Of a stretch of 64,000 nucleotides of DNA, positions 17,333 through 64,000 are shown in pieces. Position 1 is the first letter of the stretch. The number at the start of each line of letters is the position of its first letter. Source of the stretch: Sphaerolaimus hirsutus (lineage: Eukaryota; Nematoda; Chromadorea; Monhysterida; Sphaerolaimidae). The notes beneath the pieces were generated by a model. That model was not told the origin of the DNA. It saw only the letters and a program-made list of their open reading frames with translations, and did no database searches. A program made the position numbers and the translations under genes. The DNA lies in NCBI GenBank assembly GCA_964036195.1, contig CAXIWS010000787.1, positions 1 to 64,000 on the forward strand, given 5' to 3'.

Positions 17333-18887
17333 TCTAATAGAACGGCATACCTCCAATAGAAGGTCACCTCCAATAGAGAGGCAGGCAGGTTTTGGCTCGT
17401 TTTTGCACTCACAAAAACAATAGAACAGCAGTCTCTAATAGAACAGCAGTCTCTAATAGAACGGGCAGTCTCTAATATAACAGCAGTCTCTAATAGAGCG
17501 GGCAGTCTCTTATAGAACGGGCAGTCTCTAATAGAACGGGCAGTCTCTAATAGAACGGGCAGTCTCTAATAGAACGGGCAGTCTCTAATAGAACGGGCAG
17601 TCTCTCTCTAATAGAACAGCAGTCTCTAATAGAGCGGGCAGTCTCTAATAGAACGGGCAGTCTCTAATAGAACAGGCAGTCTCTAATAGAACGGGCAGTC
17701 TCTCTCTAATAGAACAGCAGTCTCTAATAGAGCGGGCAGTCTCTAATAGAACAGGCAGTCTCTAATAGAACGGGCAGTCTCTAATAGAACGGGCAGTCTC
17801 AAATAGAACGGGCAGTCTCTAATAGAACAGCAGTCTCTAATAGAGCGGGCAGTCTCTAATAGAACAGCAGTCTCTAATAGAGCGGGCAGTCTCTAATAGA
17901 ACGGGCAGTCTTTAATAGAACGGGCAGTCTCTAATAGAACAGCAGTTCTAATAGAACAGCAGTCTCTAATAGAACAGCAGTCTCTAATAGAACGGGCAGT
18001 CTCTAATATAACAGCAGTCTCTAATAGAACGGGCAGTCTCTAATAGAACGGGCAGTCTCTAATACAACGGGCAGTCTCTAATACAACGGGCAGTCTCTAA
18101 TAGAACAGGCAGTCTCTAATAGAACAGGCAGTCTCTAATAGAACGGGCAGTCTCTCTCTAATAGAACAGCAGTCTCTAATAGAGCGGGCAGTCTCTAATA
18201 GAACGGGCAGTCTCTAATAGAACGGGCAGTCTCTAATAGAACGGGCAGTCTCTCTCTAATAGAACAGCAGTCTCTAATAGAGCAGGCAGTCTCTAATAGA
18301 ACAGGCAGTCTCTAATAGAACGGGCGTTCTCTAATAGAACGGGCAGTCTCTAATAGAACGAGCAGTCTCTAATAGAACAGCAGTCTCTAATAGAGCGGGC
18401 AGTCTCTAATAGAACAGCAGTCTCTAATAGAGCGGGCAGTCATTAATAGAACGGGCAGTCTTTAATAGAACGGGCAGTCTCTAATAGAACAGCAGTTCTA
18501 ATAGAACAGCAGTTCTAATAGAACAGCAGTCTCTAATAGAACAGCAGTCTCTAATAGAACGGCAGTCTCTAATAGAACGGCAGTCTCTAATAGAACGGCA
18601 GGCAGATATTATGTTTGAAGAGTGCCAAAGAACAAAAATATACAAAATAGATGGCGGGAACATTCAAGGCACTCAAATATTGATATCAAGTTACAAATTG
18701 ATGCTCTGGTATAAAAATGTGTCTCATGTTTCATCTAATACGAAACTGTGTTCAAATATAAAATGTGTGAAAAATTTATGAAAGCAATAGAGCGACAGCC
18801 TCCAACAGAACGGCACCTCCAATAGAACGGCAGCAAAAGAAAGTTGACAAAAAATAGAACGACACTCTTTTATTAGAAGAAATGCGG
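17333..18887. mobile_element. family Q element swollen by a minisatellite
   Basis: CTGTATTTCTTCTAATAGAACGG at the left and TTTTATTAGAAGAAATGCGG at the right, with TA flanks (17331-17332, 18888-18889). It lies in the intron between Kunitz exons 3 and 4. Outside the array it matches the Q copies at 8574 and 22651. Confidence 0.75.
17400..18610. repeat. minisatellite of AGTCTCTAATAGAACGGGC units
   Basis: About 65 tandem units of 18-19 bp, variants of AGTCTCTAATAGAACGGGC and AGTCTCTAATAGAACAGC. Variant order repeats: the run with CTCTCTCTAATAGAACAGC recurs near 17612, 17702, 18152 and 18252. This shows higher-order duplications of several units. Confidence 0.9.
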
Positions 18888-27621: not shown

Positions 27622-28749
27622 ACTATGGCATGTACATGGTCCGGCTGAAAAGTCCCCGGGCAGTGCTCGCCATTCGCGCTAGGGGTAAGCTACGGTTATA
27701 AAATTTTAACACGTTAATATACCAGGTGTTTTGAGTTTTCACCCAAAATTTCACCCCTCAAGCCCCACCCACTGCGGAACTGTGGGGGTTACAATTTCGG
27801 TCATTTTGTACTGATGTACAAATGGTGCTCTAGCTCAATGCTTCTTTAAGTTGTGATCGTGAAACTTTTGCTAGTGTAAGCCACCAGTGTTGGCAATGTG
27901 CCAGCACCAACGAACATCAGCTATGATATCATAAGTCTAGTCCATATTGTCATTACTGTCACTACTCTCACTACCAAATTCATCATTCTGCCTCTCCTTC
28001 TCAAAAAGTGGTTAATACAGGATGCATTTTGCATGCACACTGCTGTTGAACACAGGTAATGTGCCCACTACAGATTAGTAATGAAACAAAGGGAAATTTT
28101 AAACACATAACTCACTTACTGCACATTTCAAAACAACATTAAAATCACTGCATTACAACATGATCTCAGATGATCACCAAAAACATCCATCACATTTCCC
28201 ACGTTTCTTGCACATCACCCTGATCTGCATATTAATTTTACCTTAATAGCAATGATGTTGATAAAAGTGTTGAATATTATCAGCAAATTGCCAACACACT
28301 GGCTTACACTAGCCAAAGTTTCGTGATCACAACCTAAGGCCGTGTTTACACGGATTTCGTGTGACGACAAAAAATTTGTCGTATGTGACGACAAATCAGC
28401 CGCGATAACTCCGACAAAAATCAGCCTCGATGCCTCCGACAAAGGAAAATTTGCGTATTTAACCTAATTTTGCACCCAAAAATTTTTTTTTAAATTTAAT
28501 AACCATATGATATTGTTGGTGCCGAATTTTTGCTTCATGTGCCACACATTGTTTGGCATTTTTGAGGGCTTCTTTGAAATAACTGGGGTGCATTGTTGTC
28601 ACAAAAAAAACACGTTCACAGCTTGTGATGACAATGTCACCATGCACATGTTTGCAGAATTGTGATTTGTCGGACTTTTTGTCGGAACGCCTCGCTAGCG
28701 AGGCCTCCGACAAACAAATTTTGATGTGCTATTTCCACTCAAAGAAGGA

Positions 28750-32345: not shown

Positions 32346-33260
32346 ATAAAATACTTGTTTTTACCTGAAAACAGAAAAGTGAGTATTTTTAAGAAATTTG
32401 GTCTAATTTTGACTAAAAACACACACGAATTTTCATTGCTTTTTGCCTATATCCACCTTCAAATTCACTGGTTCATCAGATTATTGCCAATTTTCAGCTA
32501 TTCTTGACTGTATGTATGTGCTTATATTTATATCAAATTTTCACTATTTTTCACTACTTTTAGCCTTTTCTTCCTTTTTCCCCTTTATGCTATAAGGAGC
32601 CAATATATAAACCTATCCAAAATACATTTTCTGTACTCAACTATTTGAAAAAAGTATGCATAAAGGTGAGTACAGGTACTTTCTTTCACAGGAAATGTAA
32701 CTGTATTTACGTAGTACTTGAGTATACCATATATCCTCAAATAATTACCCTTGGTGGTACTTTAATTTACTGAACAAATGGGGTAAATTTGTTAACATAA
32801 ATCATTTGTAGGAATACAAAATTCACAATTCAAGCAGAGAAATCAAGGCTAGTGAACTCTACATTCTTTGTAAATATGAAATGTTGTGAAATCTTTCCAA
32901 AACATCAAAGTGGGGGAATTATTCGAGGGGGCTATTTTTTCCTCACTCACAAAAGGGGTACTTTTTTGAGGATATACAGTACATATTTTTCAAGTAAATG
33001 TAAATACGTTTTTACAACTAGGGATATTAGGCGAAAAAATTTCCGCTGGGACAGTTAGGTAGATAGCTGACTGGCCTCCGAGATAGATATATAGCTGGGA
33101 AATCTTTTTTTTTTGGGGGGGGGGACGATTTGTTATATATTTGGGCGCGCAATTCCCTACATGCCCTTCATATTATCAGCAGATTTGTGCCTGTAGACAT
33201 ATTTAAATCCCTGTAAAAGTGCTCTGACGTGCGCATGTCGCTGTAAAATGTATTTATTTA
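32346..33260. repeat. degraded AGAGTTGT-type and R elements
   Basis: A family R copy (32727-32979, ATATATCCTCAAATAATTACC to GAGGATATACAG) sits inside sequence that ends GTAAATACGTTTTTACAACT at about 33019, an AGAGTTGT-family right end. No gene. Confidence 0.5.
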
Positions 33261-34159
33261 CATGGTCGGGCTGAAAAGTCCCTGGACAGTGCTCACCATC
33301 CGCGCTAGGGTTAAGCTACGGTCGTAAAATTTAAACACGTTAATATATCAGGTGTTGTGAGTTTTCACCCAAAATTTTACCCCTCTAGCTTCACCCACTA
33401 TGGAACTGTGGGGGGTTACAAGTTCGGTCATTTTGTACTGATGTACACATGGTGCTCTAGCTCAACGCTGCTTTAAGTTGTGATCATGAACCTTTGGCTA
33501 GTGTAAGCCACCAGTGTTGGCAATGTGCCAGCACTAAACAACATTAGCTATGATAGCATAAGCATAGTCCATATTGCCATTACTGTCACTACTCTTACTA
33601 CCAAATTCATCATTCTGCCTCTACGGTTGGTCAATACAGGTTAATACAGGATGCATTTTGCATGCACACTGCTGTTGTACAAATTAGTAATGAAACACAA
33701 ATGAAATTTTATTGACATAATTATTTACTGCACATTTCAAAACAACATTAAAATCACTGCAATACAACATGATCTCAGATGATCACCAAAAACATCCATC
33801 ACAGTTCCCACGTTTTTTTGCACATCACCCTGATCTGCATATTAATTTTACCTTAATAGCAATGATGTTGATGAAAGTGTTGAATACTATCATCACATTG
33901 CCAACACTGGTGGCTTACACTAGCCAAAGTTTCATGATCTCAACTTAAAGCAGCGTTGAGCTAGAGCACCATGTGTACATCAGTACAAAATGACCGAAAT
34001 TGTAACCACCACAGTTCCGCAGTGGGTGGGGCTAGAGGGGTGAAAATTGGGGTGAAAACTCAAAACACCTGATATATAAACGTGTCAAAATTTTATGACC
34101 GTAGCTTACCCCTAGCGCAAATGGCGAGCACTGTCCAGGGACTTTTCAGCCCGCCCATG
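33261..34159. mobile_element. intact mariner-like fold-back M (899 bp)
   Basis: CATGGTCGGGCTGAAAAGTCC and the inverted right end GACTTTTCAGCCCGCCCATG, TA flanks (33259-33260, 34160-34161). It provides the uninterrupted reference that proves the split copy at 27635-48402. Confidence 0.8.
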
Positions 34160-34772
34160 TATATTTACATACATAAACAGCGGTTCCTGACGCCAGTGCC
34201 GACGCCAACGGCGCCATGGCCTGGCGCCTAAGAATCGTGCTGGCGCCGTTCCTTAGCCACAGGGGTAAAATTTTAGGGAAGGGGGGGCTGAGCCTGTTAA
34301 CAAGCAAACCCCCCCCCCCCCGGCTCAAAAATCCTAAATACGCCCCTGCCTGCTTTTTAGATTTTTCTTCCTTTTCGTGCTTCTACACCTCGAAAAAGCC
34401 TATATTGAAGCCCCATGAAACCCTCCCCCAACCCCCCCCCCCTCCCCAACCTAAAACTTTTTCAGCTATTTATAATTATAGTTGAGTGCTGTGTCCGTTT
34501 TAGATTGAAGACACAACAAGACCTTGTCGTCACAAAAAAAACACGTTCACAGCTTTTGACAAATATCAACCGCTTTGTTGTCCTGTCAGATTCTGCGTGT
34601 GACGACAGTCTGTGATTGTCACACTGTCGCAGCATGAAAATCTAGCTTTTTTCAGATTTGTCGGAAAGCTGTCGGAACGCCCGGCGGAATAAAAAAAATT
34701 CAACTGGCCATAACTATTTAATGACTAAGCCAATTGAACTGAAATTACACACACATATACACCTAAGTATGA
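34160..34772. other. sequence between M and the retroelement, T-related
   Basis: The block from about 34524 (TCGTCACAAAAAAAACACG, GTGACGACAGTCTG, TCGGAACGCCC) repeats in direct orientation material at 28596-28700 next to the left end of T. It is either internal T sequence or a second T copy. No exon seen. Confidence 0.45.
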
Positions 34773-34784
34773 TTGAAGTTGAAG

Positions 34785-34886
34785 ACCGGAAAACTTTCTT
34801 CCGGTCGATCTACATCGAGGCTGTTTACATTGAAAAAAAAGACCGGAAAACTTTCTTCCGGTCGATCTACATCGAGGCTGTTTACA
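34785..34886 (+). repeat. two tandem 54-bp-spaced hairpin repeats
   Basis: GACCGGAAAACTTTCTTCCGG followed by TCGATCTACATCGAGGCTG occurs twice in tandem. Each unit can fold into two hairpins (GACCGGAA/TTCCGGTC and TCGAT/ATCGA). Tandem monomers upstream of the first ORF are typical of non-LTR element 5' UTR promoters; that role is inferred from position only. Confidence 0.6.
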
Positions 34887-35543
34887 TCTACTCCTCGTGG
34901 TTACAGTTGGTTTAAAAGAGAGGTAGATGAGTTTTCTACCTCTCGGCCGCTGTCGTTACTCGCGAGAGTTCGACATGCGACCACAATCGACAAAGTAGTC
35001 GATTTGGCCTTCATGGCCGAGTGCCAAAAGTTGGTACCTAACCCGAAGTGGGTCATTTATCAATTAATTATTCTCTACTATCCTCAAACAGTGTCTGAGT
35101 TTGACACTAATATTCTGTGTTACTGGCAAAGTGCCAAAACACTGAATATCGGCAAAGAGGCGGCCGTATACAGACGTATACTGGCAAAATTTCAGGTTTT
35201 GGCACTGTGCCAAATACACTGGATATGGCTCCTAGTGCATTCTCTATCAATATTAAATAACGGCAAATGCTCCAGGCCAGCATTAGAGGGCTGCGGAGGT
35301 GATATAAACAATTATAGTACATCATCAGCGTCAAAAACATCTCCTTTCGAAAATATACTGAAAATGCCATTGAACACTGGTTATCATGGCGGAAGATGGT
35401 GCATGTTGCTATTATTTGATAATGTCTTGGGGCTAAAATTGTTAAAACCGTTATCAGTATCTGGTGTGAGAATATATTTCTACCCATATAGATTCGGGCA
35501 GTGGCCTCGGGATATATTTAATCTAACATTTATTACTAACACT

Positions 35544-38500
35544 ATGGAGGGCGCATCGCCTGAGAATCGTAAAACGCGCTCTAAATCAACAACACGCGGT
35601 AAATCTGTGACATCGGCATCGGAGCGAATCGACGATGATGTCTGCTCTGAGGCCGAAATACTGACAATTGAAGACGACGACACTTTTGAAGTGAGAATTT
35701 ATTTTTTTGGAATGTTGCTAGATACATCTATTTGGTTTGAAACCTCACTGGTGATATCTAAAAGCTGTGTATTCGATATTTACAAAGTGTTACATGGCAT
35801 CTTTTTGAAATCTGTTATGTCTGACACTCAGGATGCGATTGCGAGCAAGTCCAAAGCGGAAAAACTGGCGCTGCGGATTGTTCGGGCCAATACGCGCCAC
35901 CCAAGTGCTTCCGCTCGTATCACACCACATCCATCGAGGTCTTCAAAAACTATTAAGTTAGTGAGCTTGAAATGTCCAGTGTTAAGACAAAAACGATCCC
36001 AAAAATTAGACAAAATGGCAATTATCTTTCGTCAATGGTATCGGCATATGCTTTCAGCACTCGAAAATTGTACATATGACAGCTGTAAATCATTGAATAC
36101 TAAACTCACACATAACATACAATCGAGGGATGGATTCTCTGCATTTTTGGCACTTTTGGCATTTATATCACCCTTTGACAATACATGCTCTTCCATACAT
36201 CGCACATCCACACTTCATAATAGTCTTTTTTCGTGCAGAGGTGGCGCGCTTGATGAGGGGTCCCCCGAACTGGCCCCCACTGACAAGGGGTGTCTGCATA
36301 ATGCTCGCTCTGTGGGGGTCGATGACACGGGCGTAAATGCTGTTTGTGACGCCATAACAGCTGATATGGAAATCGACAAAGACAATGATTTTGCGAAACT
36401 GAAAGTTGTCGTTGTCGAGTCGCCCAAATCCTCAAAATTGCAACAACAAAGTGTCCATTCTTTTGAAAAAGAGGTGTTTTCCAGGGGTGAGACGTCGCGA
36501 GCCCCCCCAAAAGGTGCGGTTTCAAAGGGTGCTAAATTGATTTTTTGGGAAAACCTTATTGCACATGAAAATGTTAGTAAATTGTCAAACATCATGTGGG
36601 ACAGTATTGGGAAAATATCAAGATTACACAATCACATAGTATTTCGTTATGCAATTTTAGATACCGTTACGTTGGCGAAAAGACGCAAGGCAGCGGTGGC
36701 TGCTGCCTCGAACAAACGTATCAAGGGGTTGGATATAAAGGGAGAACTAAAGGTATACAAAAGTAAGAAAATGCAGACAAGTGATCTTGGAAAGAAAATC
36801 GGTGAGCTGTTTTACGATATAAATTTTGTTGTTTATTTATGTGTTCATTTGAGAATGGAAAAATTTAATGTTACTGAAAGGGGATACATGAACCTAGTTA
36901 CATATCATGTCATGGTAGTACATACACTGATTTTTCCACCTTCAGACCCTGACAAATATCCGGACGCCAACTGCGTGGACTGGGAAAGTATGAGCGCCGA
37001 TCTGAAACGTCGCTACAGCGTCAATGGTGCTGCTTACGACCCAGACATCATGATTGAAGAAATACACAAAAGCTGCTCCGGGCTTGATGTCAACAACACT
37101 GCCTCGAGGGTCATCATGATGTCTGGCCAGATGCTGCACTACATGCTGCATGAATTGACGTTGACGTCACTTTTCTGCCAAAAAGTAAGTGTACCCTGGG
37201 TTTTAAAATGGGTTTTGGTTTGGGTTTGGACAGCTGAATGCGCAGATCATCTTTTGAACCAACATCAAAGGGTTATCCTACCTAAACACGGTAATCTTGA
37301 CAAGCCCATACTAGGGATAAAATTCCAAGATATATGTTTGTGGATAGAATTCTTACAATTAATAAAATCGGTGAAAGCGGTAAAAGTTATACACACAATT
37401 TGGAGATGTTGCAACACTCATTCATACACGCAGTTTGAAGCCTTCTCCTCGACTGTTTTGAGTGCACTAAAAAAGGACACTGACGTAATATGGAATCGCG
37501 TGGACCAAATTGAAAACGACATAAGAATGCTAATGGACGATACAATTGGACTTGACGACAAAGTGTCTGAAATGGATAAAAAGGTATTCACACTTGATGA
37601 TTTAGATGCACTTTTGGAATTGATAGTCAAAATACATGTTGGATGGGGCCTCACAACTATCAAGTTTCTGCAAAAACATTATAGCATATCAAACTTGTCC
37701 AAATATTACACATTAAGTCGGTATGACAATGAAAAATTTGAGGGATTAATTGTTCTTGCTAATTCAGTCAAATGCTGGCTAATCATATGTGAATCAATCA
37801 TGCTGGTAACTCTTATTTCATTGCAGAGCAGCGAAAAGCGGGACGAATTGCTGGCGCAGATCACCGAACTCAAAGACTTCGTCAAATTTTCAGAGGGGAA
37901 ATTGAAATCATATGCAAGTGCTGCCGCGCCATCAACAGACACATCGACGAACAAGCGCAAACATACGGAGGTGGCCGAGCCCGATAAAGATGCAAAAAAG
38001 GCGAAAACTGAGACAAAGGTGTTGAATAATGTTAGTTTGGGTTCAAGCATGCAAAATGAAGTATTTATAGCGTTTCTAAGCATAAAATTGAAATGTGGCA
38101 CATATTTTTTAGATATGATAGATATAGACCTTGTAATAAAACTGATGCACACATCTAACTTAAGTCAAGACAAAGTACACATCAATAAAATATCCCCACA
38201 GCCGCCGCGGGCCATCGGAAATGTACCTGAAGATTATCGCGGCAGAAAAGCGGACAAAGATTTGCTTGTTTTTCTCAATGACCCCACTGATCCGCTATCA
38301 ATGATGTTTCCATGGACAGTAAAATATGATGGGATGGAATTCCCATGCATCGCCCTGGCGTTGATGATGGTAAGAGGGGTGATTCTGTATGGCCAGTATC
38401 TCAGGTTGATAAAACCAAAATTGGCCAGGGGGTTTGCAAATATCCTTTTCAGTAAAATACATGCCACAAAGATGGTAAGTTGTGTAAAAATAATCTATAA

Positions 38501-41500
38501 AATCCAACCACAACTAGAAAAACTCACATGGGTGGTCAATGGTTTTTCAATTCACATATTTTCTGATATCACATTTATGGACATTATTTTCTTACAGGCC
38601 GAGGCCAAAGCATTGGCCAATGAAGAGTTGGAAAATGCTGTGTACGCCTGTGTGCCATTTTTCGTGAAGCACGATCGAAGCGATTTCGATGAGAAATATT
38701 ACGACTTCACGGGCAAAATGTATGCAGCGTGGTCCAAATTGTGGTTTTTTGAGTGTTCTCAAGGGGATTCTGCAACAGCGCTGTGGTTCAATACTGGTTA
38801 CGGGCGGTCATACGAACCATTGTATGACACCATAGACGATGCAAAACGGTCTCCTGCTTACAAGGCCCTCTTAAAAGTTCTCAGTTCTGCCATCATGACA
38901 AACCCGCAGTTGAGGTTAGATATCATGCTTGGTGCTTTACTATGTGCACTTATCACTGTTGGTGGCATTTTTGAATTTGCTAAAATAAAGCAAGACGTTA
39001 TCTCTTTATCCTTATTTAATTTTCGAATTTTGCAAAACCACAGCATTCACTACTTCTGTAAATCCATAACGGTATATTACTTCAGCAAAAATGTCCATAT
39101 ACCACCAAAAACTATACCACACAGACAATTGTTGTGGCAGACGGGGAAAGATCGCGCTGGCAACAGCTGTGTGGACAATTTCCGATTTATTCGCTGCACT
39201 GGATCTTTCCCAAATAGCGGCTGGAGAGGAGCACTTATGTGCGGTGCAGATAAATCGGCCACAGAGGTACTTTTTAGATATAAAATTATATTTACTGAGT
39301 GTAAACGGATATCAAATACAATAAAGGATGTGAAATTTCCACTATTGAATAAAATATCATTTCATGAAGCTCAAAGAATGTTACTTTTAAAACAAAAAAA
39401 AATGGTATTTGGAAATTACTGATTCACCCAACCCCCCCACAATTCAGTATAAAATTATCATATGATGAGTTAAATTGCTACTTATCAACCCAGGTTGCAC
39501 TGTCGACCTGCGTGGGTGTCCACTACAAATCGCCATTTATGAGCCTTTGGGGGGACGCCCTAATGGAATTACGCGCGAAAATCACACTCGAATTGGCTTA
39601 TCGGAAAAGAAATGATGCCGGCAAATGGGTGCAAATGAAGGAATACGGCACATTTACAGAGTTTGATGCAAGTGGCCACTGGAAAGTGACTGACCCCAAT
39701 GGTACCAACAAAAGAGTGGCTTTCATGATTCGCGTTAGTTTATGGGGAACAAAAGTTACTGATATTTATGTGTTGAAAGGTATAATGGTACCGTCATGGT
39801 ACAATGTGGTAAATTCTCAGTCCGGCACAACATACACACTATTGGGGGGAAGTATGGTTACAACAAAATACGAAATATATTACGAAAACGTAAAAATACA
39901 CTTAAATAATTTACACTATTCGCAGAACCGAGGCCGCGGCCGCGGAAATGCACAGAATTATGGTCGCGGCCGCGGACGCGGTGACATGCTCAACAGCGCC
40001 AACAGCGGCATGGGCGGCCCCCGAGGGGGTACCCGTGGGCGTGGCGTACAAAGGGGTGACAGATTTGGATCGAATAGGGGGCGCGGCAGCACGAGTGCGA
40101 CCCCCGGGGCAAAATTTTTGTCAGCTCGTTTCGATGGTGAGACCGAACCAGAGCCGAATGCAAGCGACAGTTTGACAGAAGTGTCCAAAAACGTGTTCAC
40201 GGATGCACGTGCGAGTGCGGAAGTGTTAAATGGTAAGTATTTAAATTTTGGGGAACATTGTGAGGGGAATTTGAAATATGTTACTTGTAATAAGACACAG
40301 CATAGATGCAAGCCAGTTAAAAAACAGATATTGAATTCTCATATCTCGGCCGTGACTTACGTGATCATAAGACCACACATATCTACTTTGATAATTATGT
40401 TAATACGCGCAGGCGAGACAGACCTGGCCACGCTAAATGCACGCCTTGTCGAGCTGATGGAAATCGTGAAAGGAAAATCAAAGGCCCAGCCGACGCCTGC
40501 ACCCGACGACATCGTAGATGCACTGGAAATGGATGGTTGCCTAGCGGATCTAGTAACCCCAACAGCGACCAGTTTTCCAGAAGATGGAAACAATATGTTT
40601 GACGAGGGCACGATTTTTGATGAAGATACAGAATTTGGTAAGTATAATGAGTATTTGTGTGAAATTTTTGACAATATTCATAATTGGTTAGATTGTAGAG
40701 TCGTTGGAAAGCGGTGTATCTATGTAATACACTTTGCCATACTATCAATGATGTCAAAACAGTTCTATAAACATGACACAAACTTTACAGCGGAAAAATT
40801 CACTAAAAAGATATGGAAAATTGGGATATTTTTATACACAAGTTGGAAGTACACAATGATAAGCACAATTGCCACATTACCCCACTCAGACTCCCCAGAG
40901 GCGCCTGTGCAGCCGCTTCAAATATGTAGCGCGGCCCCAGCTCAGGCTAGTACGAATGCAGTTACTGATACGAGTGAACCCTTTGGACAACAAGCTCCGC
41001 CCATTTCGCAGGTACGTAAAGGGCTCAGTGAGTATAGGGGTTGCAACAGGGAGGTGGCGTGCTATGGACCCGTCGAATTCACGGAAATGTGTGAACTTTT
41101 GCCAAAAAATCAGAAAAAAATAGGGAAATTCCTCAAGCATACAGTGCAAAAGGGGAAGTACCCGGAACAGAAACTATTAAGAGACAAGTCGCTGCAAAAC
41201 ACACTTTTGGCACCTCTCAGTGCCCTGCGCCGTTTAAAAATAATGGTTCCCCTCGGTCCACAAATGGGGTATCGTGCATCAGACGGCAGAGATATGTTTT
41301 CAGAAATCGGGGATTTGAACACAAGCAAAAATGTGGCGACTGACTACTTTTTCACGATTTTCATTGTTGGCGACAGCACTAGTGTCGCCCTGAAGTCCGA
41401 AATCAATCGCCAGGCAGATATTGAAAAAATCAAAATCCACATCGACTCAACAGGGGGTATTTATTGTGGTCAAAGACTCCCCTGTATAGCTACGGCCCTG

Positions 41501-42329
41501 AAATACAACGAAATGTCAACTGCCTATGATGCGATATTCATCAGGGCAGTTCTGGATAGCTCGGACTTAGAACTGGCAACAGCCACGGAAATGCCGGGTG
41601 TTTCAATTAGAGAGAATTTTCTTATGCCAGTGTACAATATGATCAATCAAATAGAAACTGCCGGAACCCTATGCATGCAACCACACGGTCGATTGATCAT
41701 TAGCTTGATCGGGCCGACACTGCCGGACTATAATTATTCAATGTGGTGCGAAGAGCTTTCTGCTGAAATATTTTACTTCTATTTGGACTTGGAAAATGCA
41801 CTAATCGACTTTTTGAAAGCGCGCCGCCCCAAAATCATGGTTCTGCCAGTGATGAGCTACTGTGTGCAATATCATGCCAAAATGGGGTTGTCATCGCCTG
41901 TACGTGCTATGACAAATATGGTGGCAAGGGATGGCCTCCACCCATCAAAAACGGGTACCAAAGTGATCGGCCACCTGCTGTTGCAGACCCTTAAATCAAT
42001 GTTTGTCCCTTTTTCTTGGGCTTTTGGGTTGCAACAAATATCCACATTTTCTACTGTAAAAAAAAGTAACGGAAATAATTCAGGGTATCGGCATATAATA
42101 GAAATTGTAGAGTTATCTATTGAGATGGTATGGATCTTAACCAATTATCGATCAAAATGCATTCAGATAAACACAAGATCCTTCAATCAGATATACTTCA
42201 CACTGTTTTTAACATCTTCTATTTTTACACACTCAGGTGGAAAAAACGCGAAAACGCCGGGCCGAGCTAATGAAACGCATAAAACCAGACCAGCGCTCGA
42301 TCACGTCGTTTTTGGAGAAAAAATCCTGA
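35544..42329 (+). CDS. retroelement ORF1: coiled coil, NADAR-like, RG-rich, SGNH hydrolase, PIP-like tail (16 exons)
   Basis: Exons 35544-35690, 35832-35956, 36239-36528, 36661-36801, 36946-37184, 37434-37583, 37827-38018, 38202-38369, 38598-38914, 39125-39266, 39494-39733, 39926-40232, 40413-40637, 40890-41011, 41114-42004 and 42237-42329 join to 1263 codons including TGA. The start ATG (MEGASPENRKTR) opens a charged N-terminus. Residues about 315-395 are coiled coil, then an NLS-like KRK/KKAK stretch. About 440-650 is a NADAR-like domain: YDGMEFPC, then NPQLRQLLWQTGKD, then WGDALMELR. An RGRGRG segment follows at about 718-765. About 1010-1220 is an SGNH hydrolase with VGDST and DGLHPSKTG (Ser, Asp, His). 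The end has QRSITSFL, close to a PCNA-binding PIP box. SGNH (esterase) domains occur in ORF1 of CR1/L2-type LINEs; NADAR there is unexpected. Intron 14 and the last donor (GTCCCT) are the least certain. Confidence 0.7.
38202..39733 (+). other. NADAR-like domain split over four exons
   Basis: The domain is recognisable only after splicing introns 38370-38597, 38915-39124 and 39267-39493. The last of these is 227 nt with in-frame stops and separates the two long open frames. NADAR proteins act on ADP-ribose or NAD-derived metabolites and modified nucleic acid. The conserved order is a YDGxxFPxxExAxxxxKA-like block, NPxLRxxLxxTG and a C-terminal LGxxLMxxR block. Here E of the first block is replaced (IALALMMAEAKA), so activity is uncertain. 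Family call from motif order only. Confidence 0.5.
41360..41985 (+). other. SGNH hydrolase domain of ORF1
   Basis: Block I VGDST (near 41362), a Gly-rich DSTGG about 30 residues later, and block V DGLHPSKTG (near 41927) follow the SGNH order, with catalytic Ser, Asp and His present. It lies in one long exon. The expected block III Asn is not obvious. In LINEs this domain is thought to bind membrane or lipid; the role here is inferred. Confidence 0.6.
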
Positions 42330-42549
42330 ATTTGATAATTTATGAGAAGTTGGTTCAGTGCTTGGAAATTGGGTTTTTTCTAGGTTCTTACCTAACAAAT
42401 ATGAATGTAGTAAAAGAGTTAAATGCAGCTGCAAACACTATATCTGGAGAGAAAAATTGCAAAAAAAACCATCTCATGGGTGCTTGGTCTAGTTTTATCT
42501 AAAGTGTGCCTACTGCAACTACACAATTACCTAATTTACGATCACACAG

Positions 42550-43242
42550 GTATTTTCGTGGGCTGGCGCATCAACCAAGTTTCATTTTGGCGCGTTTGGC
42601 TTTATACCTTTGGCAAAAGTGAGTTCTACCGCAATATATTTCGAAAATGGGAAATGACGATCGATAAGCATTACAATATCAACAATCACACAGGTATTTT
42701 CGTGGGTTGGCGCGTCGACACAGTATCGTCTGGGAGCGCTTCGATTTATACTATTCGCGAGTACAATTTTAGTAAAAGTGAGTACAATTTTAATATTTTC
42801 CAAAATTTCGAAATGACTGTCATTATGTACCACAAAATTGTAAACCAATATATACACTGGGGTAGGGTACAAAAGCCCCTGATCATTTCGCTTAATTCAA
42901 TACCGGTAAAAAGAAATATGACCATGCTTATCCAGAATAATGGACGTATGATCAATTTCATTTTCTGGGATATACAGCTTCGATATACACATCTAACAAG
43001 TTGGTGGGGGTATCTAACTTACGCTACCTGCGAAAATGCAGGTCTGTTCGTGGGTTGGCGCGTCGGCCCAGCATCATTTTGGCGCGCTGTGTTCTATAAA
43101 TTCCAGTTTTGTGAGTCATGCAAACTTTTACTTCATGCTTCATTATCCACATCTTTCATTTTCCTCCACACAGGTATTCCCATGGGTTGGCGCGTCGGCC
43201 CAGATGCAACTTGGCGCGCTACGATTTTTAATTCTAGCATCT
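42550..43242 (+). repeat. four tandem paralogous exon-like cassettes
   Basis: Cassettes at 42550-42618 (69 nt), 42694-42777 (84), 43042-43110 (69) and 43174-43242 (69) each follow CAG (CACACAG in three, AATGCAG in one) and are followed by GTGAGT. All are multiples of three. Read from the first base they give VFSWAGASTKFHFGAFGF, VFSWVGASTQYRLGALRF, VCSWVGASAQHHFGALCS and VFPWVGASAQMQLGALRF. Substitutions such as GCA/GCG and TCA/TCG are silent in this frame. The layout is that of mutually exclusive alternative exons. The partner exons are unknown. Confidence 0.6.
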
Positions 43243-44513
43243 GTGAGTTGAGCTTCAATATAGATGAAAATTTAGACGATATCGCAAAATTTTTACGAAA
43301 TTCAAACCACGGTTGTATACCTATAAATAAATATAGGGATATTATTCGTATAACATTGTCGGCTGATAACCCTCATTGGCATATGCTACAGTCGTGGCAT
43401 GTATGTTCCGCCTCTACAAATTTCTGGGGCAGAGAAATTTTAGTGCTTTTAGTCGAGACTTCAGCTATGCCTGCATTGAGTGCAATGTCAGTAATCAGTG
43501 GTAGACAGGTGTGGCCAAAATTTTATGCCGCAGGTTCAAAAACATTCATTTTTCAAAATATACATTCGTGTCAGAGGACATATCTGATTCGTACATTCAT
43601 AGCCGGTAAACTCACAAAACTATGCGAACTCGCTTGTAGACTAATATTGCTTCATAAATTATTCTGCTGTCCACAAATACAAAAAATCGCAGGTTTTGTG
43701 TTGGCTATTGACGCCGGTGGATTGAAACTGGGCGACATGCCAGAGATTGATTTTAAGTATCATCTGCTGCGTTTTTTCTGTCACTTCGGGTCACACGTGA
43801 CAATAGATCTTTCACATTTTTCATATTTTTCATATTTGCTGCCAATATTACATCCTAATACTCATTTCAGTGTGTTAGTTATCCCGATTCAGCTGAAAAT
43901 TCTCCAAAATTATCGAATATATTCATGCATTTTTGAACGTTTTATCGCTAAAATGATATCGTTTATTAGTTTTATCGGAGGTTATTTATGTCACGCCTTT
44001 ATACTGTGGGGTTGGAAGTTATACAGTGATTTATTGATGACTACGTCAGCAAAATCAGCCGGCATGGGGATCGAAAATAGATCACAATCAACAGCATGCA
44101 ATGTAGAAAAATTTGAAAAAAAGAACATCGAAATTTATGGGGAAAACATTTTTGATTCTCATGCCGGTAGTCACGGTAATGAAGTATTTAATTCACAGAG
44201 TGTAGCCAATAAATGCAACCGGTCAACCGCACACAGGCCTAATAGTACAGGAAAAAACACATTACTCATCGATAGTATGCTACTTATAGTCCTATCGCTT
44301 TTGAACTTTTTTTACTCATTCGTCAGAGGGCCCGCTCTACACTCTCATGGACATGTGGGCTTTATAAATTTATCCATTGTTTCTGGTAGTTTTCTCTCAT
44401 TCAAGAATATAGATAAAGTAGGGGTTAGAGGAAGTTCTAAGTCAGCAGTGAATTTTACAAAAAAAGGCTACAACCTATCAACATTAGCCAAATGGATCCA
44501 ATTTTTACTATTT

Positions 44514-47500
44514 ATGACACTTGTTACACCAGTTAATGCCACAGGGGGTGGCGAGGCACATCATGTGTCAAGCTGTGTATCCATGCTTCTGGCGCTGTCA
44601 ATATTATATCAAAATGTAAGATGTCTTAAAAACCAGGCCACTTGTTTACTTGACACGGTTAAAAAGAGTGGTGCTGAAATATTATGCTTTACTGAGACAC
44701 AATATGATAATGCCTCTGACTGTGCATGCATAGGTGGATATGCGGGGGTACACAGGTACAAAAATACGATGAAAACAGGCGGCCTGTCAATGTACATCCG
44801 CAAGGGGATAAAATATACCTTGAACAGGGTTGACGATTATCTGTCAAACAATATATTAAGTGTGAAAATAACAGATCATCCCAGTTTTTACAACAGTACC
44901 TCGGAATATTCTATGAAGCGTTCCACACAAAAAATAAAGTCGCGCTACTCAAACATAAATATAATTGTAGTATATCTAGAAAACAACAGTAAAGTCAAAA
45001 AATCAAAAAATGTGTTGAAATTAAATCGAGACATATTAGAAGTCTTATCTGAGATGATAGAATCTAATAGGAAAATAGGCGAAAGTACTTTACTTGTTGG
45101 TGACTTCAATGGCCACATCGGGAATGATGAACTGGGGATAGATGCAAATGATCCCTGTAAGAATACAAATGGGGAACTTGTTCGTGCTTTCATGTGCGCG
45201 ACGGGGCTGTCACTGGCCAATAGACAAATGGATGGTCTATGGACATTCAAAAGGGTAAATGCTAAATCCGTTCTAGATTTGTGCTTCGCAGATGGCTCGC
45301 TTTGTATGAGTAAAGGGGTTGTCGATGAATGCGATGCATACAGTAGTATCCAGTCAGACCATAATGCAATATTTATGAAGTTTAGCCATAAGGTCGTGCT
45401 AAGCCAACCATGCAAAAAAATCCTACGTCCCAAAAAAGTGGAAGATGAGATACATTTTCAAGCAGAACTGGCAAAAAGTCATCCGACAACATACACGGGG
45501 GTGGTTAACGCAATTAACAAGGCCTCTACAGTGCTAGTGAATGACGAGGCCATAAGACCAGTGCCAAATCAAATTAAGAAACAATGCCGCAAGATAGCTA
45601 AAGTGAGGCGGAAACTAAAAAAGTCTGAAAAGGAGCAAAACACATATATGCAAAAGACACTGAACAGCGATCTGAAGCTGGAACGGAGGAGACTTCGTAA
45701 TATGAAGAGTACCCTGGACCGAAAAGAAAAACAAACACAAATAGAAAAGTTGGCAAAGCAGGGTGGTAACTACCAGATGCAAGAAATCTTTAAAAAGGTA
45801 AACAAAATACGTGCTGGGGATAGAGACGTGATACACACAATCTACGATGAGGATGGCGAAGCGGCTGCGTCGGTTACTGCAATGAATACACAGATGGTGA
45901 AAGCGTGGCATGTGGTGACTAAGCCGAATCCTGGATGTGCACTATCAGAGACTGGGGAAATTCCTAAAATTACAGCACCTACTAAATCTACAAATAAATT
46001 GACGGAACCAATTACGCTTATAGAAATTGAGAAAGCAATTATGAATCTAAAAAACAACAAATCGGCAGGCACAACTGGGATTTATCATGAGCATCTTAAA
46101 TTATTAGAAGAGGACTACCAAACCACACTTTGCAGTATATATAATACCTGGCTTGAAGGTGGCACAATACCGGAGGAAGCAGCACTGTGTAAAATGATAC
46201 TTTTACATAAAAAGGGTGACAAAGGAAACATGAAAAATTACCGCACCCTGGGGCTATCATGCAACATCAAAAAGGTATATATGTCGGTGCTCAATCGGAG
46301 GTTAATAAGATGGCTAGAAGACAATGATGCTTTGACTGAGATGCAGGGGGGTTTCCGCCCGGGTAGAAGAACACTTGACAATGTGCAAATACTGAAAACA
46401 TGTTACAATTATGCTCGGGTAAACGGTAACCCATTTGTTACATGTTTCATTGATGCAGTTAAAGCCTTTGACCGGGTAGACAGAGATAAACTATGGAAAA
46501 AAATGATGATGATGGGAATACCAAGCATCTTAGTATCAGCGATTTCTAACGTCTATCTAAAGACAAAAGCTGTAATGACTTATGGGGGTTATGAAAGTGA
46601 TAAACTGGCCTACCCAATCGGAGTAGCACAGGGGTGCGCACTGAGTCCTACGCTCTACGCAATATATATACATGATCTGGCAACAGAGCTATTGAATACA
46701 AAAATGGGAGCAAAATGTGGTCTGGGAAATGAAAAAATTCCTGCACTTTTCTTTGCTGATGACATTGTATTAATGGCTTCGAGAGACAGCGAGCTCGAAC
46801 ATCTTATGAGTGTCTTCAGCTCTTGGGCATGGAAATGGAGTGTAAGTATAAATGCATCAAAAAGTGAAGTGCTGCGATGGGGTGATATCAAGATTGCAAA
46901 AAGAGAGTGGTATATTGATGTAGGAGGTGGAAACAACAAAGAGAGGGAATTAATTAGTGAAGTGGATCAGATACGATACTTGGGGGTGTTAATAAACACC
47001 GGTGGAGATCCATTTAAAGCTCACAAAGCAAACGTCATAACGAAAATGAAAAGGTTGAGTATACTACCTTTAAAAGCCGCTAAAGGGACAGTCACACCAC
47101 TACACACTGCGAACATCACATGGAAGGCATACGTGGAGCCCGGATCAATGTACGGGGTTGAGATAACGGGCTTAGACAAGAGTCAATTAATGGAGATGGA
47201 CAAAATATATGTACAAACAATGAAAAAAGCTGCACGACTGCCAATTAGCTGTAGCACCAGCTCTTTATTGTACGACATAGACGGGATACTACCGTCAGAC
47301 AAATATAACCAATTAGTATTGACAAATGACAATTACATGCAAAGGGCGTGTAGGACCAGGTGGCTAGTAAGAGCTCATGAAACCGATAAGCGGATATCTG
47401 GCAACCGTCGTATGAAAATAGACAACACAAACAAGACGCTGGTCACACAATGTATACAGTCATCAGAGATCAATACGGTCATTTCAAACCTGAGAGGATC

Positions 47501-47918
47501 AGATATAAAAAATTATATCCACAGGAAAAGGATGATCCATGCGCGTGATAGGATCAGGATGGAAACAGCGGTTACGAATAGAGGTGGGGTGTTGGATAAG
47601 GTAGAAATAAAGAATATTTACTACAATGAGCTAAATTGGCTAGCCGCCAGATATAATGCCCTACGGACTAGGAGCGGGTCCAAAAGGAAAGTTTGTAAGT
47701 ACTGTTCATGCAGCAACGTAAAAATCGTGGCAAACATGCATCATATTATGTATATGTGTCAAATCAATACGTCAGAGCGCAATAATTTGGAGAAAATACG
47801 ATGCTCAATACCGTGTGATTGGAGAGAAAATCCCCTCGGAGCTAAACTATGCCATCGCCATAGAATGGGTGTTGACAATATGATACGTAAATGTATAGTG
47901 CAGATAACGGATAGGTGA
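44514..47918 (+). CDS. retroelement ORF2: APE endonuclease and reverse transcriptase
   Basis: One uninterrupted exon, about 1134 aa from the ATG at 44514 (44583 is an alternative; the frame is open far upstream). The APE-type endonuclease carries QNVRCL, CFTETQ, LVGDFNGH and SDH. The reverse transcriptase has GIYHEHLK, GGFRPGRRT, FIDAVKAFDRV with its first catalytic Asp, GVAQGCALSP, and FFADDIVLM (near 46749) with the catalytic Asp pair, followed by SINASKSE and IRYLGVLIN. C-terminal CKYC...H....C is a zinc knuckle. All catalytic motifs look intact, so the copy may be recent. The role is target-primed reverse transcription of the element's RNA. The clade cannot be fixed by eye. Confidence 0.9.
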   Translation: MTLVTPVNATGGGEAHHVSSCVSMLLALSILYQNVRCLKNQATCLLDTVKKSGAEILCFTETQYDNASDCACIGGYAGVHRYKNTMKTGGLSMYIRKGIKYTLNRVDDYLSNNILSVKITDHPSFYNSTSEYSMKRSTQKIKSRYSNINIIVVYLENNSKVKKSKNVLKLNRDILEVLSEMIESNRKIGESTLLVGDFNGHIGNDELGIDANDPCKNTNGELVRAFMCATGLSLANRQMDGLWTFKRVNAKSVLDLCFADGSLCMSKGVVDECDAYSSIQSDHNAIFMKFSHKVVLSQPCKKILRPKKVEDEIHFQAELAKSHPTTYTGVVNAINKASTVLVNDEAIRPVPNQIKKQCRKIAKVRRKLKKSEKEQNTYMQKTLNSDLKLERRRLRNMKSTLDRKEKQTQIEKLAKQGGNYQMQEIFKKVNKIRAGDRDVIHTIYDEDGEAAASVTAMNTQMVKAWHVVTKPNPGCALSETGEIPKITAPTKSTNKLTEPITLIEIEKAIMNLKNNKSAGTTGIYHEHLKLLEEDYQTTLCSIYNTWLEGGTIPEEAALCKMILLHKKGDKGNMKNYRTLGLSCNIKKVYMSVLNRRLIRWLEDNDALTEMQGGFRPGRRTLDNVQILKTCYNYARVNGNPFVTCFIDAVKAFDRVDRDKLWKKMMMMGIPSILVSAISNVYLKTKAVMTYGGYESDKLAYPIGVAQGCALSPTLYAIYIHDLATELLNTKMGAKCGLGNEKIPALFFADDIVLMASRDSELEHLMSVFSSWAWKWSVSINASKSEVLRWGDIKIAKREWYIDVGGGNNKERELISEVDQIRYLGVLINTGGDPFKAHKANVITKMKRLSILPLKAAKGTVTPLHTANITWKAYVEPGSMYGVEITGLDKSQLMEMDKIYVQTMKKAARLPISCSTSSLLYDIDGILPSDKYNQLVLTNDNYMQRACRTRWLVRAHETDKRISGNRRMKIDNTNKTLVTQCIQSSEINTVISNLRGSDIKNYIHRKRMIHARDRIRMETAVTNRGGVLDKVEIKNIYYNELNWLAARYNALRTRSGSKRKVCKYCSCSNVKIVANMHHIMYMCQINTSERNNLEKIRCSIPCDWRENPLGAKLCHRHRMGVDNMIRKCIVQITDR

Positions 47919-47926
47919 AAAGGATA

Positions 47927-47932
47927 AATAAA
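47927..47932 (+). promoter_or_regulatory. AATAAA poly(A) signal downstream of ORF2
   Basis: AATAAA lies 9 bp after the ORF2 stop codon. It is close to the stop for a cleavage signal but is the only match in the 3' region. Confidence 0.4.
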
Positions 47933-48063
47933 TTAAAGATTGTTAAAGTGTTTAGCTGTATTGCTTGTGACGAGTAAAGGCTGATCACCCTCAGCCATTC
48001 TCGGCCAAGATATAACGGAGAGGGGCGGAACCCAGCAATGGGTATGGCCCTAGATCTCATGTT

Positions 48064-48088
48064 TGCTATAATAATAATAATGATATAT
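48064..48088 (+). repeat. ATA-repeat tail, likely 3' end of the retroelement
   Basis: GCTATAATAATAATAATGATATAT follows a 150-bp 3' UTR with GGAACCCAGCAATGGGTATGG. Short TAA-type repeats end many non-LTR elements instead of poly(A). The 5' end of the element cannot be set exactly but is near 34.7 kb. Confidence 0.55.
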
Positions 48089-48402
48089 ACTCGACCATTT
48101 TTACTCGTGAATATGGAACTTTATTCCGGAGTTATGGAAGTTTAAAAAAAGAATTTGTCGTAGCCATGAAATCCGTGTAAACGCCGCCTTAAGCAGCAGT
48201 GAGCTAGAGCACCATGTGTACATCAGTACAAAATGACCGAAATTGTAACCCCCACAGTTCCGCAGTGGGCGGAGCTAGAGGGGTGAAATTTTGGGTGAAA
48301 ACTCAAAACAACTGGTATATTAACGTGTTAAAATTTTATGACCGTAGCTTACCCCTAGCGCGAATGGCGAGCACTGCCCGGGGACTTTTCAGCCCGACCA
48401 TG

Positions 48403-48754
48403 TAAATCTCTCAGATGGGCATTTATTCGACGATTTTTGGTATATTGCCAATTTTTTACCTGTTTTCAGCAAAGTCGTTGGGTTTGCAGCAGCGTTAAAT
48501 TCGTGTCCAACCCACAGACGAACACCGCTCAGTGGTGGCGCTTGAAATGGCTCACAATGGAACTGCAATTTTTCAATTCTGTTACACGCAAAGTAAATAT
48601 ACCTAAGGTGTAGGGAAAAGTCCAAAACTTCAAAAATTCAGTTTGGTCCAAAAATGGCATCTATAAAATGCGCTAAATAGGTTGCATTGATTTGTCACAT
48701 TTTTCAATGTCACTTGCCCCTTTCGTGAATACATGGGTACAAACTAATACCAAC
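48403..48754. other. no supported gene
   Basis: Begins with a short R-like end (CATTTATTCGACGATTTTTGG near 48420-48440). The rest is unassigned sequence upstream of the tRNA. Confidence 0.35.
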
Positions 48755-48826
48755 GGTTCCATGGTGTAGCGGTTAGCACTCAGGACTCTGAATCCTGCGA
48801 CCCGAGTTCGAATCTCGGTGGGACCT
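48755..48826 (+). tRNA. tRNA-Gln (anticodon CUG)
   Basis: A 72-nt cloverleaf: acceptor stem GGTTCCA/TGGGACC with a discriminator T, D arm with TGGTGTAGCGGTTAGCA, anticodon stem AGGA/TCCT around CTCTGAA (anticodon CTG), T arm with GAGTTCGAATCTC including the GTTCGA B box. It matches animal tRNA-Gln. No intron. A T run (TTCTTTTT, 48831-48838) downstream could serve as Pol III terminator. Confidence 0.95.
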
Positions 48827-50724: not shown

Positions 50725-51074
50725 TTTGGTGCCAGTAGTGAGAGTAGTGACAGTAATAGCAATATGGACTAGGCTTATGATATCATAGCTAATATTGTTT
50801 AGTCGTGGCACATTGCCAACACTGGTGGCTTACACTAGCCAAAGTTATATGATCACAACTTAAAGCAGCATTGAGCTAGAGCACCATTTGTACATCAGTA
50901 CAAAATGACCGAAATTGTAACCCCCACAGTTCCACAGTGGGTGGAGCTAGAGGGGTGAAATTTTGGGTGAAAACTCACAACACCTGATATATTAACCTGT
51001 CAAAATTTTATGACTGTAGCTTACCCCTAGCGTGAATGGCGAGCACTGCCCGGGGACTTTTCAGCCCGACCATG
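50725..51074. mobile_element. right half of a mariner-like M element
   Basis: Matches the right arm of 33261-34159 (GGCTTACACTAGCC, TTAAAGCAGCATTGAGC) and ends GACTTTTCAGCCCGACCATG before TA. It retains the intact TTAA that T used in the other copy. Confidence 0.7.
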
Positions 51075-51087
51075 TACATATGTAAAT

Positions 51088-63354: not shown

Positions 63355-63569
63355 CTGCACATTTAAATTACAAATGTACTTGTTTTATTCAATTATAATA
63401 CTAAAACACTCGTGCACAGTGTTTTCCTATTTGCATGGATACACTTTACAAAGAATAATACTTGCGAAGAAGTCATTTTTACTTGAAACATAGCAAAGAT
63501 GGTAAGAACGTGTCAAAAATACATCCATGCAAATAGGAGTGCGCTGGAGTGGTATTTAGTAAACTTTGA
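62043..63569. repeat. tandem duplication, 509-bp unit containing one exon
   Basis: Three near-identical units (start-to-start 509 bp, e.g. exon ends 62202, 62711, 63220) each contain an exon (62202-62336, 62711-62845, 63220-63354; 45 codons) and an intron with a fold-back. Units differ at only a few bases, so the duplication is recent. A fourth exon copy lies at 60536-60670. Confidence 0.9.
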
Positions 63570-64000
63570 GTGAAAATGACGTGTGCACGACACAAGTGAC
63601 TTGTGCACACGTCAAATTTTTATTAATTAGACACATGCCAAAAATTGTTATTACAGTGCTACCAAATTATTTAAAAGCGCTTAAAATGGACACCTACCTC
63701 AGTGCAATGCACAAGTCGGAGCGCACTTCTATTCGCATGTATGTATTTTTGACATGTTTTTCCGATGTTTTTTGTGCTTCAAGTCCAAACGACTTTTGCA
63801 TGTGTCATATTTCCTAAAATATGCATCCATGCAAATAGAAGTGCGCTGCAACATGCGCAGTGCACTGGGACAACTATATCGATTTAAACACACTTTTTCT
63901 CATGCTCGAATTGAAAATGACTTGTGCACGACACATGTGACTTGTGCGCGAGTCATATAAATCTGATGTAAATTTCGTGCTGTCGTGAACACAAATATTT

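Follow-up and report, generated by a model that had tools for sequence, protein, structure and literature searches.

Translation-open introns in a LINE of the nematode Sphaerolaimus hirsutus suggest a splicing switch between ORF1 and reverse transcriptase

How can an element that spreads by copying RNA hold on to a large set of introns? Retroelements copy RNA, so introns should vanish in one round. The question is raised by a 64,000-nucleotide (nt) stretch of the Sphaerolaimus hirsutus genome (GenBank assembly GCA_964036195.1, contig CAXIWS010000787.1, positions 1 to 64,000 of the forward strand; hereafter the window). An earlier note, made by a model from the letters alone, had described at 35544-42329 a retroelement open reading frame 1 (ORF1) cut by 15 introns, 13 of them multiples of three in length (3n) and free of in-frame stops, and had proposed that either a longer protein is translated from RNA that keeps its introns or splicing is tuned to leave every retained intron in frame. 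The open frames, the introns and their stop-free 3n lengths have stood up to analysis; the fourteenth intron, a spliced protein of 1262 residues and a NADAR-like domain have not. The reading considered probable here, at roughly 0.6, is that spliced RNA gives the ORF1 protein and that unspliced RNA serves both as template and as the message for the endonuclease-reverse transcriptase (EN-RT).

The element, about 13.3 kb long, is recognisable as a long interspersed nuclear element (LINE), a non-long-terminal-repeat (non-LTR) retrotransposon with an APE-type endonuclease, because of its EN-RT, its tail and its dispersed copies. EN and RT lie at 44.6-47.9 kb of the window, where ORF2 (44595..47918, without a recognised intron; all features described are on the plus strand) matches the Pfam families RVT_1 (2.7e-31) and Exo_endo_phos_2 (2.2e-8) and has structures of LINE-1 ORF2p among its Protein Data Bank matches. 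A 3' untranslated region with a ATAATAATAATAATG tail follows (47919..48090, its end set by eye). The marks of a non-LTR element, a 3' tail and dispersed insertions with differing flanks, are found in two pairs of related copies: c6 and c7 have poly(A) tails and unlike flanks, and d1 and d2 likewise have unlike flanks. A Copia-type LTR element was ruled out, as self-comparison of the window showed no direct repeat resembling an LTR at either end of the element (the 217-nt repeat that flanks it is a dispersed sequence present five times in the window) and a Pfam scan of three frames gave no integrase, the EN-RT being found instead. A protein search with the EN-RT returned 16 distant reverse transcriptases, and relatives of the element sought in viral contigs, genome contigs and phages led nowhere.

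Read without splicing, the window element is free of stops over 4,380 codons, from 34773 to 47915, in frames 2, 1 and 2 taken in turn with two overlaps. Both open stretches of the earlier note, 34773-39422 and 39512-42502, hold, the second being open already from 39368. The openness exceeds that claim by taking in the 5' leader (34773..35543), with no stop in the giant frame against 17 and 14 in the other frames, and the ORF1-EN interval (42503..44549), which after the overlap has none against 40 and 47. The frame slips once in intron 10, where frame 2 is open to 39419 and frame 1 from 39368, and once beyond the ORF1 stop (42330..42502), where it overlaps frame 2, open from 42423. Each switch falls in a short overlap that holds a long A run, A9 in intron 10 and A8 in the overlap at 42423-42502; the whole window element has four runs of A8 or longer.

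Within this frame all 15 proposed introns are present as GT...AG stretches of the lengths claimed. Read in the frame continued from the upstream exon they hold three stops, all in intron 10, against 92 and 73 in the other frames. Mononucleotide shuffles of the same 15 introns hold 76 stops on average; the probability that a single shuffled intron lacks a stop is 0 to 0.113 (2000 shuffles). Fourteen of the introns are supported. The 102-nt intron 14 (41012-41113) was dropped because of its poor acceptor (-2.9 bits), its exon-like GC content of 0.49 and a coding call by a codon hidden Markov model (HMM), so that 12 of the 13 3n, stop-free introns are left and, with intron 14 taken as coding, spliced ORF1 would come to about 1,296 residues.

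ORF1 begins with exon 1 (35544..35690; ATG in AACACTATGG context) and intron 1 (141 nt, 35691..35831); introns 1 to 9 and 11 to 13 are all 3n and stop-free. Exon 2 (35832..35956), intron 2 (282 nt, 35957..36238) and exon 3 (36239..36528) follow, exon 3 itself and the edges of exons 2 and 3 being poorly conserved in copies, and then intron 3 (132 nt, 36529..36660), which has weak splice sites. Next come exon 4 (36661..36801), intron 4 (144 nt, 36802..36945), exon 5 (36946..37184), intron 5 (249 nt, 37185..37433), exon 6 (37434..37583), intron 6 (243 nt, 37584..37826) and exon 7 (37827..38018). Intron 7 (183 nt, 38019..38201) lies between edges seldom reached in copies, and beyond exon 8 (38202..38369) intron 8 (228 nt, 38370..38597) has both sites in nine of the nine copies counted. 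Exon 9 (38598..38914), intron 9 (210 nt, 38915..39124) and exon 10 (39125..39266) lead to intron 10 (227 nt, 39267..39493), which breaks the frame in the window; the eight introns mapped to this place in copies are 3n, in copies chosen for an unbroken frame. After exon 11 (39494..39733), intron 11 (192 nt, 39734..39925) has no GT at its place in copies c3 and c5-c9. The remaining parts are exon 12 (39926..40232, RGG-rich in translation), intron 12 (180 nt, 40233..40412), exon 13 (40413..40637), intron 13 (252 nt, 40638..40889), a single exon in place of exons 14 and 15 (40890..42004), intron 15 (232 nt, 42005..42236), whose donor is weak in the window (-4.6 bits) and which has GT at the same place in ten copies, and exon 16 (42237..42329).

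The codon HMM has two states, was seeded from the EN-RT region only and is blind to splice sites. It placed noncoding blocks at 14 of the 15 introns, with approximate edges, some of those at introns being misplaced by as much as about 90 nt, and it wrongly called noncoding three short stretches in ORF1 exons and four in EN-RT. Splice-site scores, computed with textbook weights, were higher near the block ends than at random places: 0-6 of 1000 random sets scored as high for donors and 0-2 of 1000 for acceptors, at search widths of 20-60 nt. They were also higher at correct block ends than at the wrong block end. A coiled-coil register running across the exon 6/7 junction was considered as well and rejected; the best heptad register differs between the two sides and therefore lends that junction no support.

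Are these introns a property of one copy or of a family? The 348-Mb genome was searched with the frame at 39512-42499, which gave 95 matches from 46 scored candidates, and ten copies (c1-c10) were chosen for long open frames. Each of the ten has a single stop-free frame of 4,137-4,609 codons over leader, ORF1, introns and EN-RT, with the EN-RT, 52-82% identical to that of the window, at or near its end. Nine of them (c7 is a near-duplicate of c6) together hold 39,615 codons with no stop, against 2,789 and 2,788 in the other frames. The leaders of the nine copies and the window have none against 160 and 151, and the nine ORF1-EN gaps none against 380 and 390. The copies are divergent: except for c6 and c7, their frames align in DNA over 0.2-5.1 kb only, at 70-82% identity. 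Window exons were mapped onto the copies with an alignment score of at least 60 and the exon edge reached within one residue, c7 and the donor of the last intron being left out. An exact GT stands at 62 of 73 predicted exon ends (0-10 when shifted by 1-12 nt) and an exact AG at 66 of 75 (0-12 when shifted). Position +5 is G in 54 of 62 donors, and position -3 is C in 61 of 66 acceptors. As GT and AG recur at the predicted places in divergent copies, the intron positions are common to the family, and consensus and conserved position together mark these stretches as predicted spliceosomal introns. The 72 copy introns with both sites contain 5,884 codons and no in-frame stop, against 434 and 466 in the other frames; the 3n length of 72 of 72 is built in, because the exons were sought in one frame.

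A further sample, picked regardless of frame, consists of the seven best-matching copies besides the window, minus c1 and c2, which leaves five (L003-L006 and L009). They contain 24 mapped gaps between ORF1 exons 9 to 14, of which 21 have GT and AG at the mapped edges. The frame is kept by 21 of the 24, one of which (intron 10 of L004) has a single stop. Other copies with introns free to gain stops and indels, which the earlier note had set against its own reading, were not what was found: ten of ten long-frame copies are open and 21 of 24 of these introns keep the frame, in copies that look partly decayed. The frame breaks or stops of five copies fall at one place, intron 10 of the window, L004, L005 and L009 and exon 10 of L006, by chance or as a weak spot.

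As a host control, two chaperonin genes of the same genome gave 14 gaps between exon matches, none stop-free and four frame-keeping, with 106 stops in frame against 107 and 111 in the other frames; the gap edges are those of family matches, not mapped splice sites. Because the control has no stop-free gap, the open introns are assigned to the element rather than to host genes generally, as far as two genes can show. Stop-free introns across the host were rejected as an explanation: open lengths of 290-1,050 listed for some chaperonin exons are contradicted by the DNA, L037 having no open run of 150 codons and L038 one of 161.

What kind of selection keeps the introns open? In the pooled window introns (intron 14 omitted, intron 10 read in two frames) codon-position bias is no higher than in stop-free shuffles, 330 of 500 being at least as high. 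Taken singly, 13 introns, the leader and the ORF1-EN stretch have periodicity z scores below 1, against 2.7-5.5 for five exons and EN-RT. The pooled 72 copy introns have no periodicity beyond stop avoidance either (91 of 100 nulls as high). The introns look like noncoding sequence that is missing only its stops.

Closely related copies point in the same direction. Copies c6 (contig C3) and c7 (contig C2) are 99.6% identical and alike from 5' end to poly(A) tail, and the frame takes up 13,224 of 13,382 shared bp, with 57 substitutions and no indel. Replacement and silent changes stand at 32:6 in introns, leader and gap (with ill-mapped ORF1 exons, exon 3 among them, counted in this class), 1:6 in mapped ORF1 exons and 4:8 in EN-RT. 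The first ratio differs from the other two classes joined (Fisher p = 2.8e-5) and not from neutrality (p = 0.14). With unlike flanks around such a match, c6 and c7 evidently retrotransposed with their introns kept. The pair d1/d2, which has a common start inside ORF1, differs by 72 substitutions, one 3-nt in-frame indel and tail length, with ratios of 23:11 in intron-like parts, 7:12 in ORF1 exons and 8:4 in EN-RT.

At greater distance, the copy L034, whose EN-RT is 94% identical, diverges from the window by about 16% over 43673-44594, between ORF1 and EN. Up to 44480, 59 single changes are replacements and 21 are silent, a fraction equal to the 0.74 expected under neutrality. The indels are of 6, 12 and 18 nt by MAFFT (BLAST splits them into seven gap openings), 904 of 904 aligned columns are in the same codon phase and both frames are open, with about 4% of changes expected to create a stop. 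A neutral ratio, a kept phase and the lack of stops together argue that selection acts on frame and stops, not on amino acids. Separately, the copy at C2:16928104-16935297 of G000 and one on C15 around 9783582 have EN-RT 90-94% identical to the window and an ORF1 (67%) or upstream stretch (84%) that is less alike, a mismatch that may point to module exchange between families.

The last intron is of another kind. Intron 15 is 3n+1 in length and stop-free in the continuing frame, and exon 16, which carries the ORF1 C-terminus (TRKRRAEL...QRSI.SFLEK, then the stop TGA), lies in the +1 frame with respect to the giant frame, which itself stays open through the exon. This arrangement is found in the window and in nine of ten copies (c1-c9); in c10, exon 16 was not found. 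The script's nearest AG gave 3n+1 in c1, c3, c4, c5, c6, c7 and c8; in c2 and c9, where the AG it chose lay slightly within the exon, the aligned CAG was read by eye, with the same result for c4. With a last intron of 3n+1, splicing would therefore end ORF1, and retention would lead past the ORF1 stop and on, in frame, into EN-RT.

Directly before EN, at 44480..44594, the giant frame encodes a signal-peptide-like segment of hydrophobic and then small residues (for instance LLFMSLFTPVNA and LILIFLLWLIPGAAA), which recurs in each of the ten copies as well as in the window; elsewhere in the ORF1-EN gap 0-5.5% of scan intervals are as hydrophobic. Among these sequences no Met stands at a common place in the segment. 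That the segment is explained by a splice acceptor directly upstream of EN was rejected, since the nucleotides are not conserved. The segment is a hint that a peptide upstream of EN may be made; a signal-peptide-like cut before EN is speculation.

How might these parts work together? Some 14 spliceosomal introns would be kept open to translation, stops and frame changes being barred and the encoded amino acids free. Splicing would yield the ORF1 protein, whose stop is reached through the 3n+1 last intron. Where that intron is retained, the ribosome would pass the ORF1 stop in another frame and read on into EN-RT, which would thus be made from unspliced or last-intron-retaining RNA. LINE-1 is known for its cis preference; an EN-RT that likewise binds the RNA that encoded it would copy intron-bearing RNA. 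Introns would then persist, and a copy with a stop in an intron would cease to spread, because EN-RT copies its own unspliced RNA. All the introns lie in ORF1 and none is recognisable in EN-RT, so that either form of the RNA would give one working protein. From the frame, the splice signals, the neutrality, the 3n+1 intron and the copies that moved with introns we infer that splicing occurs, that unspliced RNA is translated, that EN-RT is released and that it acts in cis. About an even chance is given to the fuller scheme, in which splicing status acts both as a switch between two proteins and as a label of the template. Here the unspliced RNA would give a polyprotein about 4,400 residues long with EN-RT at its end, which might be freed at the signal-like segment, and the spliced RNA ORF1 only, with introns under pure selection against stops and frameshifts and their peptides unselected. 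Of the two proposals of the earlier note, translation of the intron-containing RNA into a longer protein appears to fit best, because the frame spans the leader and enters the reverse transcriptase and the last intron bypasses the ORF1 stop. The other proposal, that a retained intron keeps the frame, holds for every intron but the last and would be a consequence of translated unspliced RNA, not a rival to it.

Several observations weigh against this reading. The window copy has two frame slips and so is not intact in the giant frame, and the ten copies were picked for frame, which builds in the count of 72 of 72. L005, L006 and L009 lose the frame at exon or intron 10, L004 has its stop in intron 10 and d2 has one in an intron-like part; such copies show that not every copy obeys, and they may be dead. 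An open frame of at least 3,000 codons is listed for 11 of 42 scored EN-RT matches, so that most copies are shorter or broken, although such listed lengths are not fully reliable and are no proof of openness, the frames relied on having been checked in sequence. Furthermore, a product about 4,400 residues long, carrying many inserts that are not under selection, would have to be tolerated or cleaved, and for cleavage the segment before EN is suggestive only.

Could the introns be open for another reason? An unspliced template might need only to escape nonsense-mediated decay, stops being destabilising and the product irrelevant, with EN-RT made otherwise. Such surveillance would account for amino-acid neutrality together with the ban on stops; it does not by itself require EN-RT in the same frame, a bypass of the ORF1 stop by a 3n+1 intron in nine of ten copies or a hydrophobic giant-frame segment before EN in every copy read, and it is judged unlikely. 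Leaky splicing, with 3n stop-free introns merely keeping partly spliced ORF1 messages in frame, would suit the window introns other than 10 and the last, as well as the mapped copy introns. It is very unlikely all the same: the open frame takes in the leader and the ORF1-EN gap, which are outside the ORF1 introns, two host genes have no such introns, and ordinary introns are reported to be selected the opposite way, against being 3n and stop-free (PMC2911113).

EN-RT might instead come from a separate message in which leader or ORF1 exons are joined to it by alternative splicing, openness then serving partial retention only. The ORF1-EN gap of the window does have good splice sites and four related exon-like units (42550-42618, 42694-42777, 43042-43110 and 43174-43242), each bounded by CAG and GTGAGT, 69-84 nt long, with 3n spacing and most alike in the +1 frame (a weak signal, 5.6% of column shuffles being as high), and related units occur in c2 and c4. 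The strong gap sites nevertheless differ among the window and the four copies, out of ten, that were scanned (c1, c3, c6 and c9), and no acceptor is conserved just before EN, which makes such a message quite unlikely. That the stretches are not introns, being AT-rich linkers of a giant polyprotein flanked by chance GT and AG, would agree with an element that is one frame throughout. It is already disfavoured and highly improbable since GT and AG stand exactly, and with one consensus across the family, at homologous sites of divergent copies, and since exon 16 codes in another frame and needs splicing. Finally, the intron-encoded segments could be a selected part of a longer protein, as their openness in all ten long-frame copies would allow; the neutral replacement ratios and the lack of codon periodicity led to the rejection of coding constraint on these peptides, and the idea is hardly credible.

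For introns in Penelope-like elements PMC3846280 cites Arkhipova 2003, and for selection against 3n stop-free introns PMC2911113 cites Jaillon et al. The closest parallel to translated unspliced RNA lies in Ty1/Copia elements such as Arabidopsis EVD and barley BARE, where one frame in the unspliced RNA gives GAG-POL and splicing gives a message for the structural protein GAG only (PMC8892269; PMC3735527). The sequence architecture of the present element fits a putative switch of this kind, whereas the element is a LINE without LTRs, has about 14 introns that are translation-open and neutral, and would use a 3n+1 last intron as its stop switch. LINE-1 and its SpIREs share the APE-type EN with RT, the order of ORF1 then ORF2 and the need for a full-length RNA template; in human L1, however, splicing is described as inhibiting retrotransposition, with spliced copies generally dead ends (PMC5860796), and here introns are common to the family. 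Penelope-like elements also keep spliceosomal introns, but they form another class, in which the endonuclease, if there is one, is GIY-YIG, and translation-open introns are not described in the available part of that account (PMC3846280). Exitrons are introns that can be retained as coding sequence, about half of them 3n, and are reported to have features of protein-coding exons (PMC4484396), whereas the introns of this element are AT-rich and amino-acid-neutral. An exitron identity was rejected, given the neutral ratios and the absence of codon periodicity.

No report of a LINE with translation-open introns was found in the literature searched, which covered few subscription papers. The family appears to show how a LINE can keep many introns, its enzyme being readable only from RNA that retains the last one. 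It also appears to be a natural example in which stops and frameshifts are selected against and amino acids are left free, opposite to what is reported for ordinary introns, and as such would offer a measure of how much translation of unspliced RNA matters.

The ORF1 protein itself gave few matches. The NADAR-like domain that splicing was said to restore is not confirmed: the spliced protein has no Pfam match at E<=10, and a profile of 113 NADAR proteins aligned to ORF1 with hhalign has a probability of 2%, scoring 21.34 spliced and 21.25 unspliced, with 2 of 100 shuffles as high. Short collinear similarities to YbiA are weak (E 0.17-1.2), and thioredoxin matches (E 0.56 and 0.98) were weak and set aside. 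Exons 14/15 carry GDS and DGLHP, read by eye, which we take to be SGNH-esterase-like motifs; the predicted structure of this stretch, made without an alignment, is uninformative, with a predicted local distance difference test (pLDDT) of 33.5. The RGG repeats of ORF1 were likewise read by eye.

The leader of the window element contains two 57-bp units at 34772-34885 and, within 34773-35543, TGGC...GCCA palindromes, for example around 35199, which presumably resemble NF-I sites; the leader of c1 repeats a short motif. Outside the element, a dispersed 0.2-kb repeat, 90-93% identical, occurs five times in the window, to either side of the element (33256-34164, 48191-48404, 27630-27846 and 50863-51076). 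Self-BLAST also revealed a long tandem repeat array at 17419-18601 and repeated blocks of 0.6-1.1 kb, 97-99% identical, at 60358-63620. A tRNA-Gln (CTG) gene lies at 48755-48826, about 0.7 kb downstream of the element.

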